Of a stretch of DNA of 12,209 nucleotides, positions 1,226 through 12,198 are shown one piece after another. Position numbers and translations under genes: made by a program. Origin of the DNA: Microcaldota archaeon (GTDB lineage: Archaea; Micrarchaeota; Micrarchaeia; Burarchaeales; Burarchaeaceae); contig QMVF01000008.1 in assembly GCA_003660965.1 (NCBI GenBank), forward strand, positions 1 to 12,209. The letters run 5' to 3'. Under the pieces are notes generated by a model. It was not told where the DNA came from. It saw nothing but the letters and a program-made list of their open reading frames with translations, and made no database searches. The first letter of the stretch is position 1. Every line of letters begins with the position of its first letter.

Positions 1226-1921
1226 TTACGGACGCCATACTTGCACGCGGAGCTTTACCAGTTCGTGTGGATTGCTGTCAGGCCTTGCATCTATCAGTAC
1301 TATGCGCTCTGCAGTTGCAATCTCTGAAGGCGTGGTTGGGTGATTTGCGGGATCTTTGCCTGCTTCTGCGGCATATGGTGGGCTGCCTCCAATATAGGGA
1401 GTTACTGGTCCTTGCACTGTGATTGGAGTTCCATCTGTATCCTCAAGAGTAATCCAGAACTCATACTGCGGTATGCCGAGCTTTTCCTTGACTTCTGCGT
1501 AGTAATAGGAGCCGCTTGGAAGGCCTGTGCCGCTGCACATCATTCCAAAATCTATGAATAGCCAGGGGTCTATTTCATTTGGTGTTTCTGAATTTGATAC
1601 AAAGCGAATGAAAGGAATCATTACATAATCATCAAGCTTTCGCGCATTGGGATCGCCCCCGCCGATCACCGCATAATCCCAGAATTCAGCATACCACTGG
1701 CTCGGTGGTGGTTCGGTATCTGGAACCATAAGCTGATTTGCAATTCTCTCGGCCTCGCTCTGCAGATCATAGGTTTGCTGTGCTAATTGATTCTGCGCAT
1801 TTATCCAGTAGAATGCAAGTAGGAAGAATGCCAGGAGGAAGATTACGGAGCTTGCTATCACGTCGAATGAAAAGAACTGGCCCCTTAAAGTTTTATTGAG
1901 TGAATTCAATTTTACCACCAT
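1226..1921 (-). CDS. pilin-like membrane-anchored protein, Gly-Gln-Phe-Phe type N-terminus
   Basis: The 231-residue product has a short basic N-terminus, the motif RGQFFSFD at residues 13-20, and one hydrophobic helix to about residue 40. The rest is a soluble, probably extracellular domain rich in Pro, Trp and Tyr, ending in the strand-like KLRVQVWRP. The layout matches archaeal type IV pilin-like proteins. However, the acidic residue (Asp20) is six positions after the Gly, not five as in classical class III signals. It seems paralogous to the gene at 4528-5205, which has a similar N-terminus and a similar last strand (RVNIWT). It is the last gene of a six-gene block and overlaps its upstream neighbour by 29 bases. 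The ATG at 1921 has only a distant GGAG. A TTG at 1909 preceded by GGTGGT is an alternative start, so the first four residues are uncertain. The specific role is unknown. Confidence 0.8.
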   Translation of the reverse strand: MVVKLNSLNKTLRGQFFSFDVIASSVIFLLAFFLLAFYWINAQNQLAQQTYDLQSEAERIANQLMVPDTEPPPSQWYAEFWDYAVIGGGDPNARKLDDYVMIPFIRFVSNSETPNEIDPWLFIDFGMMCSGTGLPSGSYYYAEVKEKLGIPQYEFWITLEDTDGTPITVQGPVTPYIGGSPPYAAEAGKDPANHPTTPSEIATAERIVLIDARPDSNPHELVKLRVQVWRP

Positions 1922-2381
1922 TTCCAGTTTCTCCTGGCAGGAGCTCCACGCGTTTTATGTTTATTTTTTCATCGGGGTCTAGGGTGAGGGGGTTTGCATC
2001 AAGTATGGGAGTGCTTCCGGTCCATAAATTCCTTGAAGCTAAGGGTGAGGAGTACTCGTATTCAGTGCCTCCCTTGGTCCACCTAACCTCTGCATAGGCA
2101 GTTGCAAACTCATCGTAATTTGTTATTCTAAGCTCATATTCAGACGTTCCAAGGGTTGAGGGAAGTACGAAGCTCTTTTCATAGCCAGGGCCTGCCAGCA
2201 GTGCTGCATGCACCTCATAGGCTATGCGCGAAGTTACCTCGCTTGCAAGCAAATATTCCCTGTCCACAATCTGGCTTCTTTGAAGGCTTGCAAAATAGCC
2301 TGTAAGCAGAAGGAATATGAAGAGGAAGAAGGCTGCCAGCAGCAGAAATTCCAGTGCAGCCTGTCCTTTTCTAGCCTCCAT
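1893..2381 (-). CDS. class III signal peptide (type IV pilin-like) protein
   Basis: The 162-residue product begins MEARKG followed by QAALEFLLL. This fits the archaeal class III prepilin signal: a basic n-region, cleavage after Gly, then Gln at +1, Glu at +5 and Leu at +9, with Ala in place of Ser at +3. A hydrophobic helix continues to about residue 30, followed by a compact, strand-rich domain with no cysteine. Such proteins are cut on the cytoplasmic side by a FlaK/EppA-type peptidase and assemble through the helix into pili. The start is the ATG at 2381, because GGTGAT lies five bases upstream. A TTG two codons earlier overlaps that motif. The gene overlaps the end of the preceding pilin gene by 11 bases, pointing to coupled translation. 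Pilin character is confident; whether it is a major or minor subunit is not visible. Confidence 0.85.
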   Translation of the reverse strand: MEARKGQAALEFLLLAAFFLFIFLLLTGYFASLQRSQIVDREYLLASEVTSRIAYEVHAALLAGPGYEKSFVLPSTLGTSEYELRITNYDEFATAYAEVRWTKGGTEYEYSSPLASRNLWTGSTPILDANPLTLDPDEKINIKRVELLPGETGNGGKIEFTQ

Positions 2382-2823
2382 ATTCAATCACCACTTGCCC
2401 TCCAGTATTTGTTATGCGCACTGGCTTTGTGCCTGCACCTAAATAATTAATCAGGGGCGAGGTTCCATAATCAAGTGGGCCGAGAGTAAGGAAAACTATG
2501 TCTGAAGGCCCGTTTCTGGTTTCCACTGTTATCGTAATCTCGCCCCTGCTCTGACCATCTGCATCTACATAATTTACAAGCTGAAAATCAGAAACTTTTG
2601 AGGGGAAGAGCATGTTTTCAACAGTGGTTGCTCCATCCCCTTGTAAATAGATTTCATCAGCATTATCTGCAAGCCTTCTTCCAAGCTGATAGGCCTGCGC
2701 AAGCGAGCTCTCATCGCCCTTTTCTGAAGATAGATCAAGCATGGTAAGGGCTAGTGGGATCAGAAAGATCATGAAGAAGGCTACTAGAACCAGAAATTCT
2801 ATGCTCGCTTGTGCTCTTTCCAT
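2371..2823 (-). CDS. class III signal peptide (type IV pilin-like) protein
   Basis: The product begins MERA followed by QASIEFLVL, an exact QxSxExxxL class III prepilin motif, then a hydrophobic helix to about residue 26. A soluble domain of about 120 residues follows, with clear beta-strand alternation (for example GEITITVETRNG and GGQVVIEYGG at the C-terminus). Counted from the ATG at 2823 the protein has 150 residues. A second ATG at 2829 adds two. The imperfect motif GCTGAT sits four bases before 2823, so that start is preferred. The two genes before and after are also pilin-like. The large Cys-rich gene stops 10 bases upstream and the next pilin starts within this gene's stop region, so all three are probably made from one transcript. 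It is expected to be processed by a prepilin peptidase encoded elsewhere. Its partner specificity is unknown. Confidence 0.85.
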   Translation of the reverse strand: MERAQASIEFLVLVAFFMIFLIPLALTMLDLSSEKGDESSLAQAYQLGRRLADNADEIYLQGDGATTVENMLFPSKVSDFQLVNYVDADGQSRGEITITVETRNGPSDIVFLTLGPLDYGTSPLINYLGAGTKPVRITNTGGQVVIEYGG

Positions 2824-2833
2824 GTTCATCAGC

Positions 2834-4537
2834 TTATGGCGTGTTGTCCTCGCATGAAGCATAAACGCCTCCTTCTATGCATGCCAGGCGGTCTGCTGGA
2901 TCATAGTCATCCCAGTGCAGATCATCAAATGCAAAGTGGCCGAATGGGCAGCCTTGACCTACAGAAGTGAAATATGAGCACTGCTCCCAAGTCTTGCAAC
3001 CCGGCATTGCCTTTGCCTTGTGCTCATCATTGTCAGGCACTGGGGGGAGGGTTGGTGCAAGCAGGTATCTGCCCGCTATGTAGTCTATATTAGAGTATAC
3101 ATCTGCATCAGCAGGCAGATTGGGCTTGTAAACATTTGGGATGTGCTTGGTTATAAGGAAGCTTTCAATTCCGTTTGGATCGCCTGCAAATGAATCAGAG
3201 ATCCAGTCATCAGTCATTCTCTGAAGGAAATTGGGCGCGCGCGGGTTGTTCACGTAGAAGCCGCATACTGAAACTGCTCTCAAATTTTCAACAGTCCATA
3301 GGCGCTTCTGGTCAGGATGGCCTGAGATGGTGTTGTGCCAGGTGCCCGAATTTATAATTAGATACTTGCCTATGAGCTCTGCTGGATCAAAGCCGTCAAC
3401 AGAATCTGCAAGTGAGGGTACGGTTATGAAGGGCACGTCTATCTCACCTGCGAACACCCCCAGCCTAACTTTCCACAAAGGGTCATTCACGTTTTCGCAC
3501 TCTCCTTGAATAAGCCCGGTAGGAGAATAGCGCAGGCAGTCAAGGCACCATTCAGTATCTTCGTGAATATAGACTGGTGTAGTTGGCGCATCCGGGCAGT
3601 AGAACTGCGGCGTGTTGGGCGGCGCATAGCCCAGTATCCAGTCAGTGGGCTCTCCAACTACTATTATTGCGCCATATTCATTCAATTTATCAAAGTCAGG
3701 AACCACTCCAATATCGTAAACCACCGCAATGCAGCTCTTCTTTTCATCTGCATCTGGGTAGCATTCGTCATTAACGGGATTCCAGAAATCAGTGGTCTTG
3801 CCGTAGAACCAACCCTTGCCGCGCAAGCCAACACAGGGACTAGCCCACTCTCCTTTGCAGTTTTGGAGTTGAAGTTCCCCCAAAGTATCCAAATCCTCAT
3901 TAAACCAAATTTGTTTCATCATGCCTTCGCCAGCGTGGCCAAATACCTTGTTATATGTTGAATAGAATACAAGTGCATCATCATAGCCGTTTATGTCTAT
4001 AAGCGCGGGCTCACTAACGTCATCCTCAATGGTTACGCCTGTGCCCCTATCTGTAATGGTGTAGGAGATCGGGTAGTCGACTTGCACCGTGTCGAAGTCG
4101 GCCATTGAAATTTGGCAGGTGCCAAAGCTTATGTCAACATCCAAGCCAAGCTCATCTCCAAGTGCTATAACCTCGGTGCGCCAGTCATTCATTGCGTCTT
4201 CGAGATTGCTTGGGTTAGAGGAGCTTGTGCAGAAATAGTTCTGAAGATTTGCTTCAGTATTATAGAGAGTTTGGGTATCGAAGATGCGCTTGTTGGTTTC
4301 AAAAAGCGAAAGCTCGGCCCCTACTTGCAAAGCGCGTTCATTATAGGTAAGAAGGCTCTGCTCGAAATTCTGAAGGTTCTGGCCCTGCGTAAGCAGGGGT
4401 GCGCGCTGTGCTTTTGACTGAGAGTATAAAAGCCAAAGAGTGGTTGAGGCTATTAGAAGCACGAGCAGAATTGCAACTGCGCCGCTGAAGAAAAAGCCCT
4501 TCTTTGTGTGCCGGGTTGAATTTTTGCTCAGGTCCAT
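2834..4537 (-). CDS. large Cys-rich pilin-like surface protein
   Basis: The 567-residue product has a basic N-terminus and the motif KKGFFFSGAV at residues 12-21. One hydrophobic helix follows to about residue 37, then a probable helical stalk rich in Gln, Leu and Glu to about residue 100. The rest is a large extracellular region with 16 cysteines, many Asp, Pro, Trp and Tyr, and no recognised enzyme motif. The N-terminus matches those of the genes at 1226-1921 and 4528-5205, but the acidic residue they carry is Ala (residue 20) here. By analogy only, GspK of type II secretion is also the largest minor pseudopilin, lacks Glu5 and sits at the tip. The ATG at 4537 has GGGTGA about five bases upstream and overlaps the upstream gene's stop by 10 bases. 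The even Cys count fits disulfides formed outside the cell. The role is inferred, and I recognise no named family for the large domain. Confidence 0.8.
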   Translation of the reverse strand: MDLSKNSTRHTKKGFFFSGAVAILLVLLIASTTLWLLYSQSKAQRAPLLTQGQNLQNFEQSLLTYNERALQVGAELSLFETNKRIFDTQTLYNTEANLQNYFCTSSSNPSNLEDAMNDWRTEVIALGDELGLDVDISFGTCQISMADFDTVQVDYPISYTITDRGTGVTIEDDVSEPALIDINGYDDALVFYSTYNKVFGHAGEGMMKQIWFNEDLDTLGELQLQNCKGEWASPCVGLRGKGWFYGKTTDFWNPVNDECYPDADEKKSCIAVVYDIGVVPDFDKLNEYGAIIVVGEPTDWILGYAPPNTPQFYCPDAPTTPVYIHEDTEWCLDCLRYSPTGLIQGECENVNDPLWKVRLGVFAGEIDVPFITVPSLADSVDGFDPAELIGKYLIINSGTWHNTISGHPDQKRLWTVENLRAVSVCGFYVNNPRAPNFLQRMTDDWISDSFAGDPNGIESFLITKHIPNVYKPNLPADADVYSNIDYIAGRYLLAPTLPPVPDNDEHKAKAMPGCKTWEQCSYFTSVGQGCPFGHFAFDDLHWDDYDPADRLACIEGGVYASCEDNTP

Positions 4538-5205
4538 ATATTCACCCTTATCACTGTTGGCCCCAGAAGGGTTCCGCCTGTGTAGGTAAGATCATCGCCA
4601 TCTTGACCGAATGCAAAGTCTGCGCAGGGCATCACACCGCCTCCACCCGCACAATAGTCTGCATTGGGGCTGTTGACAGGATAGTCGAAATTAGATTCCT
4701 CGTCTGGAGTGAAGCTGGTTGCATAGCCCATCAGAACATAGCTTGCGCTTGACTGAATTCTAGTGAATGGTACGGTATCGCGTCCTGGTACGGCTATTTC
4801 CTGCCAGTTATTACCCACCTTTACGCTTATGCTTGCGCCATACCTTTCAGGTATAAGGGGTGAAGTGCCTGTTGTGAGCAGACTGATCAGTTGATCCCTT
4901 CTTCCAGCATCTCCGTTAAGGTGCTCCTTTACAATCTGCTCAATCACAGTGTGATCATCCTCGCTCTCTTCCGGGTAAATCGGTATCCATATATTGCTGT
5001 CAGGGCCTGATTTTAAATCGCCTATGGTGAGCGTGCTCAGAGTGCCCACCACATCGCGCGCATAATCATAGGTTTGAACCTGCTGGGAGAAGAATGCTGA
5101 TGGAATTGAAAGCTGGTAGACTATTACGAATATTATAAGCGAAACTAAAATTAGGGCTACAAAGGCATCTACTGTGAATATAAAGCCTTGTTTTTTTGAA
5201 TTCAT
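4528..5205 (-). CDS. pilin-like membrane-anchored protein, Gly-Phe-Ile-Phe type N-terminus
   Basis: Using the ATG at 5205, the 225-residue product begins MNSKKQGFIFTVDAF and continues as a hydrophobic helix to about residue 30. The soluble part contains a helical section and then strand-rich sequence, with two cysteines close together (residues near 190-200) and a final strand RVNIWT. The GFIFTVD start with Asp six residues after Gly is a recurring archaeal N-terminus on single-pass proteins near pilin genes; that is from memory, not from a search. The start at 5205 is chosen because its ATG overlaps the upstream TGA as ATGA and GGAGTGA lies six bases before it. An ATG at 5211 is two codons longer. 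The gene at 1226-1921 looks like a paralogue. Export and anchoring are well supported, the function is not known. Confidence 0.8.
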   Translation of the reverse strand: MNSKKQGFIFTVDAFVALILVSLIIFVIVYQLSIPSAFFSQQVQTYDYARDVVGTLSTLTIGDLKSGPDSNIWIPIYPEESEDDHTVIEQIVKEHLNGDAGRRDQLISLLTTGTSPLIPERYGASISVKVGNNWQEIAVPGRDTVPFTRIQSSASYVLMGYATSFTPDEESNFDYPVNSPNADYCAGGGGVMPCADFAFGQDGDDLTYTGGTLLGPTVIRVNIWT

Positions 5206-5579
5206 GCGCATTCACTCCATCCAGTACCGCATTCATTGCAAGTTTGCATACCATGAGTGCCGCAGTTCGCACCCTCTGGTTTGTATATGCACGAGCGCGT
5301 TGAGCCTGGCTCGCATACAAATGGAACTATACAATCAGTCCACTGGCCATTGAAGCACATTTTCATGCCCTCGCATCCGCTGGGAAGGGTGCAGGCCAGC
5401 TGCTCGCCTTCTGTGCATACGGGTGAGGGGGTTGGCATTTCAACTGAGGGCAGGGAAGGCTCTGGAAGATCGGAGTGGTAGGGTGCGTTTAATGAGAGGT
5501 AAACGATGTACATGGCTATACAGCCCAGTGCGAGCGCAAATGCGCCTGAAATCGTGTCGCGCATTGTATTGTCTTTCAT
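5202..5579 (-). CDS. short membrane-anchored protein with two Cys-rich repeats
   Basis: The 125-residue product has one hydrophobic helix (about residues 9-30), a Pro/Ser-rich linker (about 34-52), and a C-terminal half with 11 cysteines in two related units. Each unit starts with Cys, seven residues, Cys, and ends in a Trp-x-x-Cys element: CTEGEQLAC to QWTDC, then CEPGSTRSC to GWSEC. This Cys/Gly pattern recurs in extracellular proteins of several prokaryotes and suggests a disulfide-stapled outer module. The gene is first in the pilin-like block, and its stop overlaps the next start as ATGA. The start is uncertain. The ATG at 5579 lies only about 15 bases from the centre of the TATA-like element, whereas the ATG at 5564 would sit just after the predicted transcript start and give a near-leaderless 120-residue protein. 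No function can be assigned. Confidence 0.75.
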   Translation of the reverse strand: MKDNTMRDTISGAFALALGCIAMYIVYLSLNAPYHSDLPEPSLPSVEMPTPSPVCTEGEQLACTLPSGCEGMKMCFNGQWTDCIVPFVCEPGSTRSCIYKPEGANCGTHGMQTCNECGTGWSECA

Positions 5580-11547: not shown

Positions 11548-12198
11548 CTAGGCATCCTCTTGCGCGTGATGGTGGGAAAGATGCATTGAATATGGTCGCG
11601 CAGATGATTCCTGAATCCTGGGCGGAAGCGAGCCCCGTGGCCCGCGCCGGGTCATGTAGGCTTTGTCTGCCTCAGTTACCAACCCTGCTTCGAGCAGCGC
11701 ATAATATGCAGAAGAATGCTTGCATTGCGTCAAGAGCGCTTGGAGGCCGTTGCCCGCGAAGTCTTCTGAGCAAACCAATCGCACATCGCTCGGCTTCAGC
11801 ACCTCATTCACCAGGTAGCGCGTTGCCTTTATTCTGTTCTCCCTACTCTTCCAGATGTTATCTGCCACGGACCGCCTAGTGGCTGAGAGCCAGCCCTGCC
11901 CGTCGAGCCATTTGCGCATCTTTGCCTCCTGAGTGGTCATTATAGTTTCGCCAAACGGTTCGCGATGGCGCATATGCCTCCGCATTCGAAGAAGAATCCT
12001 GTCTGCCTCCCGCTTACCCTGCGGGGGTTGAATGCCATACGCACGCATGCCGGCCACGGCGCCGGTGAAGAAATACCTCTGCAGACAGGTAGGAAAGTTT
12101 TCAAAAGAACCATGGCGCTTGATCAAATACCTCAGATACTCTGCCATCTGAGTCTTGTAGGTCTGAAACCACTGCCTTTCGCGCACTGCAGCAGCCAT
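11548..12198 (-). CDS. uncharacterised Arg-rich protein, possibly truncated by the window edge
   Basis: I do not recognise this 216-residue product. It is basic and rich in Arg, with an Arg/His-rich segment near 63-80 (RILLRMRRHMRHREP), two tryptophan-containing helical stretches (around WLDGQGWLSATRRSVADNIWKSR), an alanine/leucine helix SSAYYALLEAGLV, and a His-rich tail HLSHHHAQEDA. No signal peptide, membrane helix or known catalytic motif is visible, so a cytosolic nucleic-acid-binding protein is a guess from charge only. The ATG at 12198 is 11 bases from the window edge with no in-frame stop before it, so the real start may be further upstream. In many archaea this place next to psmA is held by RNase P subunits; nothing here resembles Pop5 or Rpp30. 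The coding call rests on length, absence of a better frame, and good fit to strand and spacing. Confidence 0.6.
   Translation of the reverse strand: MAAAVRERQWFQTYKTQMAEYLRYLIKRHGSFENFPTCLQRYFFTGAVAGMRAYGIQPPQGKREADRILLRMRRHMRHREPFGETIMTTQEAKMRKWLDGQGWLSATRRSVADNIWKSRENRIKATRYLVNEVLKPSDVRLVCSEDFAGNGLQALLTQCKHSSAYYALLEAGLVTEADKAYMTRRGPRGSLPPRIQESSARPYSMHLSHHHAQEDA

Follow-up and report, generated by a model that had tools for sequence, protein, structure and literature searches.

Background

In Methanococcus maripaludis several minor pilins of the Epd pili are encoded together in one operon, and the genes of the ATPase and of the two platform proteins, as well as that of the major pilin, all lie apart from it (PMC3875500). 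Furthermore, most genomes with archaeal type IV pili of clade 1 have at least five minor-pilin candidates per locus, and pairs of ATPase and TadC genes that use pilins encoded in trans have been described (Makarova et al. 2016, PMC4858521). Therefore, a minor-pilin operon apart from its motor is already known in archaea. Regarding the DPANN lineages, they are not mentioned in the available sections of Makarova et al. 2016 (PMC4858521), and those of Denise et al. 2019 (PMC6668835) treat archaeal type IV pili without the word DPANN. The micrarchaeote Mia14 has been reported to have two type IV pilus systems, one of them of clade 1, and one FlaK-like peptidase (PMC5498576). In bacteria, the minor pilins form a tip complex whose cap is a subunit without Glu5 (PMC10191384), and this subunit does without the glutamate because nothing stands above it (PMC10628169). 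We found no defined tip complex of an archaeal pilus described in the open-access literature searched.

Here we analyse a block of genes from a micrarchaeote that resembles these systems in several respects. Like the Epd and clade 1 loci, it gathers several minor-pilin candidates, with the ATPase and platform genes located elsewhere; unlike them, it shows no peptidase or DUF2341 gene, and its largest member (B) has no Pfam match. Like the bacterial HIJK sets (GspHIJK and PilHIJK; PMC10191384, PMC10628169), it combines several small subunits with a large one that has no acidic residue, but it comprises five families instead of four and two of its subunits use Asp at +6.

Gene content of the window

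The window, that is, the whole stretch of 12,209 nucleotides that was analysed, corresponds to contig C8. The assembly has 138 contigs that add up to 812,789 bases, and it is 77% complete. The ORF table places six ORFs between 1226 and 5579 of the minus strand, with abutting or overlapping ends (Table 1). We named them in the order of transcription: F (the Cys-rich one), A, B, C, D and E. With starts at 5205 for A, at the ATG 2829 for C and at the ATG 2381 for D, F and A overlap by 4 nt and C and D by 11 nt, and 4 nt separate B from C. A and B overlap by 10 nt, D and E by 29 nt.

Table 1. Genes of the block, in order of transcription
Gene	Coordinates	Strand	Description
F	5202..5579	-	crosses the membrane once; 125 aa with 12 Cys; 11 conserved Cys in the outer domain; non-pilin
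A	4528..5211	-	pilin-like, G^FIFTVD, Asp at +6; likely start 5205
B	2834..4537	-	pilin-like, the large subunit (567 aa with 16 Cys); +1 to +20 free of acidic residues; proposed apex
C	2371..2862	-	class III pilin-like, A^QASIE, Glu at +5; likely start 2829
D	1893..2387	-	class III pilin-like, G^QAALE, Glu at +5; likely start 2381
E	1226..1921	-	pilin-like, G^QFFSFD, Asp at +6

The preliminary description of this DNA had reported six consecutive minus-strand genes with overlapping or near-touching ends, and both the ORF table and the junctions agree with this. It had described the block as one of pilin-like proteins, one of them a Cys-rich anchor protein. Pilin-like holds for A to E, as in the window and in the relatives these proteins have a basic n-region, a cleavage site and one hydrophobic helix; the sixth, F, is a single-pass, Cys-rich protein that is not pilin-like. 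The 567-residue member with 16 Cys that it singled out is B. Of the two QxSxExxxL-type signals that it listed, the one of C fits QxSxE and the one of D reads QAALE, both being of the class III type. The PF04021 search that it proposed gave no member above the cut-off: D scored 13.2 bits against 23.7, and the other five were not listed at E values up to 1. A matched the profile of its own family with 187 bits.

According to the Pfam search, the block is flanked upstream by MGMT-like and DHH-family genes on the same strand and downstream by an alanine dehydrogenase gene. The ORF of the latter as listed (60-1238) has its start inside E, and a start near 1163 would remove the overlap. At the contig end there is a 216-aa ORF (11548-12198) with no Pfam match above the cut-off.

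Some haloarchaeal families gave weak matches to the set. DUF7287 matched 9 of 18 members of the E family, the best of them at 9.2e-8, and the E of the window scored 18.9 bits, below the cut-off of 27. DUF7266 weakly matched 2 of 18 members of D, and DUF7288 2 of 17 members of A. Among 14 control genomes DUF7287 was matched only in Haloferax volcanii, and we found no mention of it in the open-access literature searched.

Conservation of the gene order

The preliminary description had left the conservation of the gene order in related genomes to be checked. We scanned species-representative genomes with a pattern built from E alone and obtained 65 loci, at least 17 of them on contigs that, as their lengths show, had already been examined before this wide scan. 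The family profiles found A-B-C-D-E in this order on one strand in 53 of the 65 loci, and in 41 of the 48 located outside the previously examined contigs. The five genes are closely packed, with no gap longer than 100 bases in 49 of the 53 full-order loci (the largest gap, 996 bases, is in L151). Regarding the remaining 12 loci, nine are truncated by a contig start that falls within the set (L135, L143, L159, L166, L167, L175, L189, L191 and L195), in L136 an overlong ORF swapped the order of two hits, in L172 B is split over two ORFs, and L141 has C-D-E without A-B.

Our first sample consisted of 20 loci, each chosen for a B match and read from ORF tables and motifs. The full order was found in 13 of them (L041-L045, L047-L050, L054, L056, L057 and L059); two were cut (L051 and L053), L046 had A-B only, and L052, L055, L058 and L060 had another arrangement, which is treated below. 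In L046, two small class III genes after B had been read as C and D. We dropped this reading before the profile comparisons described below, because a similar pair is present on contig C13 of the genome of the window and because E, with D just upstream, lies on another contig of the L046 genome. This class III pair (L066, on C13, around 3345-3982; L046, 8218-8895, beside the A-B of G004) may be another small pilin system.

The neighbours of the set, with gene names assigned by eye, vary by family: L041 and L042 have alanine dehydrogenase and exosome genes there, L049 and L050 elongation factor 2, and L047 a LonB-like gene. Among 60 relatives, E was present in 53 according to its profile, and B was matched in 24 by a single sequence query. 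The ATPase profile gave no hit within the DNA of the 65 loci; as only 43 of them extend 5.5 kb or more before E and 3 kb or more after it, this absence refers to the DNA covered. TadC genes were found as a pair in L139, and L132 gave a weak TadC hit (17 bits).

Acidic residues and protein models

We scored the positions of the acidic residues over the 65 loci. A has Asp at +6 in 52 of 55 cases. A Glu at +5 is present in 59 of 61 C proteins (2 not parsed) and in 57 of 60 D proteins (6 not parsed), and two among the D hits, in L136 and L139, are probably major pilins. All 64 parsed E proteins have Asp at +6 (1 not parsed), a figure that follows from the search pattern having been built from E. 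In B, no acidic residue occurs at +5 or +6 in any of the 54 parsed sequences, and 51 of these have none in the first 20 residues, the other three having a Glu only at +17; seven further B sequences were not parsed, six of them being fragments or split. By analogy with the bacterial tip complexes, B would fit the role of the apex subunit.

Regarding the protein models, that of D was built from 41 sequences and reached a pLDDT of 94.4; it shows eight strands besides a single helix that spans residues 3 to 65. One long helix followed by strands is the usual architecture of pilins. The model of B was moderate, its better part being the first 190 residues, which form a sheet and an approximately 75-residue helix. 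Compared with solved structures, the models of B and D had no clear pilin match among the matches listed; the likeness of A-E to HIJK is one of subunit composition and acid pattern.

Paralogous sets linked to ATPase and TadC genes

Nine further loci carry the same five types, whole or in part. The order is C-D-E-A-B in L052, L055, L073, L082 and L087 (L052 and L055 gave no full ORF for D) and A-B followed by C-D-E in L058, while L067, L072 and L090 have partial sets. In seven of these nine loci the set adjoins an ATPase gene and two TadC genes; at L055 and L067 none of these was found within the DNA covered. L067 is the second set of the genome of the window (contig C71), with C-D-E-A ended by the contig edge; its A has at least 658 aa and its E was matched by the E profile at 6.6e-17.

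We compared the stand-alone families (18-21 rows) with the linked families (5-9 rows) by HHalign in all 25 pairs, after removing the first 42 residues because the common helix could otherwise drive the match. The probabilities of the five like pairs were 91, 98, 98, 99 and 98 and those of the other 20 pairs were 3 at most; signal motif and gene order had served to sort the linked rows before the comparison. Judging from these alignments, A-E are one-to-one paralogs of the sets that lie beside ATPase and platform genes.

Additionally, we read the E locus in nine genomes that belong to two families. In seven of them (G023, G028, G032, G036, G040, G043 and G051) the whole or a part of D-E-A-B adjoins ATPase-TadC-TadC, and in G018 and G057 no ATPase-TadC-TadC was found beside the E locus. 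In G028 and G036 a further gene separates the two, G023 has a C hit ahead of D, and G043 showed no separate B. With the helix removed, the identities of B (98), D (97) and E (100) in these adjacent sets were confirmed, and that of A was not. In the B tree the adjacent sets join the linked sets at 91/79, and neither in this tree nor in that of E are they nested within the stand-alone sets, so these trees do not show co-inheritance of the adjacent and the stand-alone sets.

ATPase, platform and peptidase genes

The preliminary description had supposed that the ATPase, the platform protein and the peptidase are encoded elsewhere in the genome. This is so for the first two, with six T2SSE hits and ten T2SSF domain hits in the genome of the window, and T2SSE was found in all 60 relatives. 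The prepilin peptidase was not found in the 77% complete assembly, though it was in 55 of the 60 relatives, including both genomes of the same family.

In an ATPase tree of 35 rows, built without reference ATPases, the ATPases of the seven adjacent sets share a 97/100 branch with the one on contig C87 of the genome of the window and with ATPases from genomes that carry A-E at another place. The ATPase on contig C69 of the same genome groups at 100/100 with ATPases that are mostly beside linked sets. We examined nine ATPase loci of the C87 branch in genomes with A-E elsewhere (L078, L079, L080, L081, L084, L085, L086, L091 and L121). None of them had a hit to A, B or E (L078 is cut), six had one weak C/D-type hit and L079 had a class III gene recognised by eye, as expected of a major pilin. 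Since the ATPases of the adjacent sets share the C87 branch and the nine loci examined are without A, B and E, the C87 ATPase, together with a TadC pair on contig C44, is most likely the partner of A-E among the candidates of this genome. The E and B trees, in which the adjacent and the stand-alone sets stay apart, count against this.

The ATPase on contig C21, whose N-terminal domain has a full-length match in many relatives, was rejected as the partner: seven genomes with A-E or part of it have no full-length match to this ATPase (G006, G016, G039, G042, G048, G050 and G059), and its branch includes a linked E-A-B set (G031). In L057, an ATPase-TadC-TadC-pilin locus with a C21-related ATPase lies just upstream of A-E, and a C21-type ATPase is a possible partner in G017.

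These loci also bear on whether one of A-E could serve as the major subunit in a filament of its own, with a borrowed ATPase and platform. The set is self-contained and alone in nearly all of the 65 loci and C and D have ordinary class III signals, all of which would suit such an appendage. However, seven of the nine C87-branch loci have their own class III gene beside the TadC genes, and B, A and E are atypical as bulk subunits. Therefore, we consider a separate appendage, which the preliminary description had given as an alternative, unlikely.

F and the genes upstream of A

F is an accessory protein and not a pilin. Among 20 hand-picked F-like proteins, 18 have 11 aligned Cys columns in common; in the remaining two, aligned over their last 140 residues only, a comparable Cys-rich stretch sits closer to the N terminus. 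In two loci the F-like protein extends into a second domain with an HExxH motif (L148, 2813-3889, HEFAH; L156, 707-1822, HEFGH), of the kind present in zinc peptidases.

The gene just upstream of A varies among the 55 loci that hold A: it is F-like in 14, an S49 peptidase in 15 and another ORF on the same strand in 11, while nothing lies within 250 bases in 14 and one has the contig start there. The S49 (SppA-like) peptidase is often found directly before A or F (L048, L049, L050, L057, L059, L074 and L129); two of these calls were made by Pfam and the rest by a profile built in this analysis.

It is very unlikely that A-E form a pseudopilus for protein secretion, like the short piston of bacterial type II systems, whose cargo would be bound by F and by the Cys-rich part of B. 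Five subunits, one of them large and acid-less, do recall a pseudopilin set, and the S49 peptidase adjoins A in more than a quarter of the A-holding loci; nevertheless, a secretin is not to be expected in these cells and no linked cargo was found. It is highly improbable that A-E are membrane-anchored surface proteins that merely carry pilin-like leaders, as the large Cys-rich outer part of B, the 11-Cys protein F and the PF04021 scores might suggest, because their one-to-one paralogy with the ATPase- and platform-linked sets and their near-fixed acid positions are hard to explain without polymerisation.

Proposed role of the set

We think that A-E are probably minor pilins that start and cap an archaeal type IV pilus, and that the genes of its ATPase and of its two TadC-like platform proteins lie at other loci. 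That they form a minor-pilin set with its machinery encoded elsewhere, as the preliminary description proposed, is well supported by the conserved order, by the ATPase and platform families of the same genome and by the peptidase of the relatives. As for the tip or priming complex that it also proposed, the single large acid-less subunit fits it, and we infer the tip position from the bacterial analogy. Counting against the proposed role are the lack of a peptidase hit in this assembly, the PF04021 result, the E and B trees, the A of the adjacent sets and the structure comparisons of B and D.

All five proteins would be trimmed by the prepilin peptidase and would assemble in the membrane into a starter complex. 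B would be placed on top, because it alone lacks the acidic residue that pairs with the subunit above. The ATPase and the platform would then insert the major pilin beneath this complex, which would end at the pilus tip and display the large Cys-rich part of B, possibly for adhesion. F would take part as a membrane-anchored accessory.

In the open-access literature searched we found no description of the five-family set, its paralogy with linked sets, the acid pattern or the 11-Cys partner. A broader reading is that archaeal pili are started and capped by a fixed five-subunit complex following the bacterial-type rule of a large acid-less apex, and that in Micrarchaeota this complex is a detachable module that was coupled to and uncoupled from different machines over time and bears a cell-contact part; this is conceivable, but we regard it as doubtful at present.

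In bacteria, a type IV pilus contributes to host binding in Saccharibacteria (PMC12206443). The set described here names five candidate subunits and predicts both the apex subunit and the machine that would build the pilus. If this is true, it would provide a candidate cell-contact structure in a lineage thought to be dependent on other archaea.
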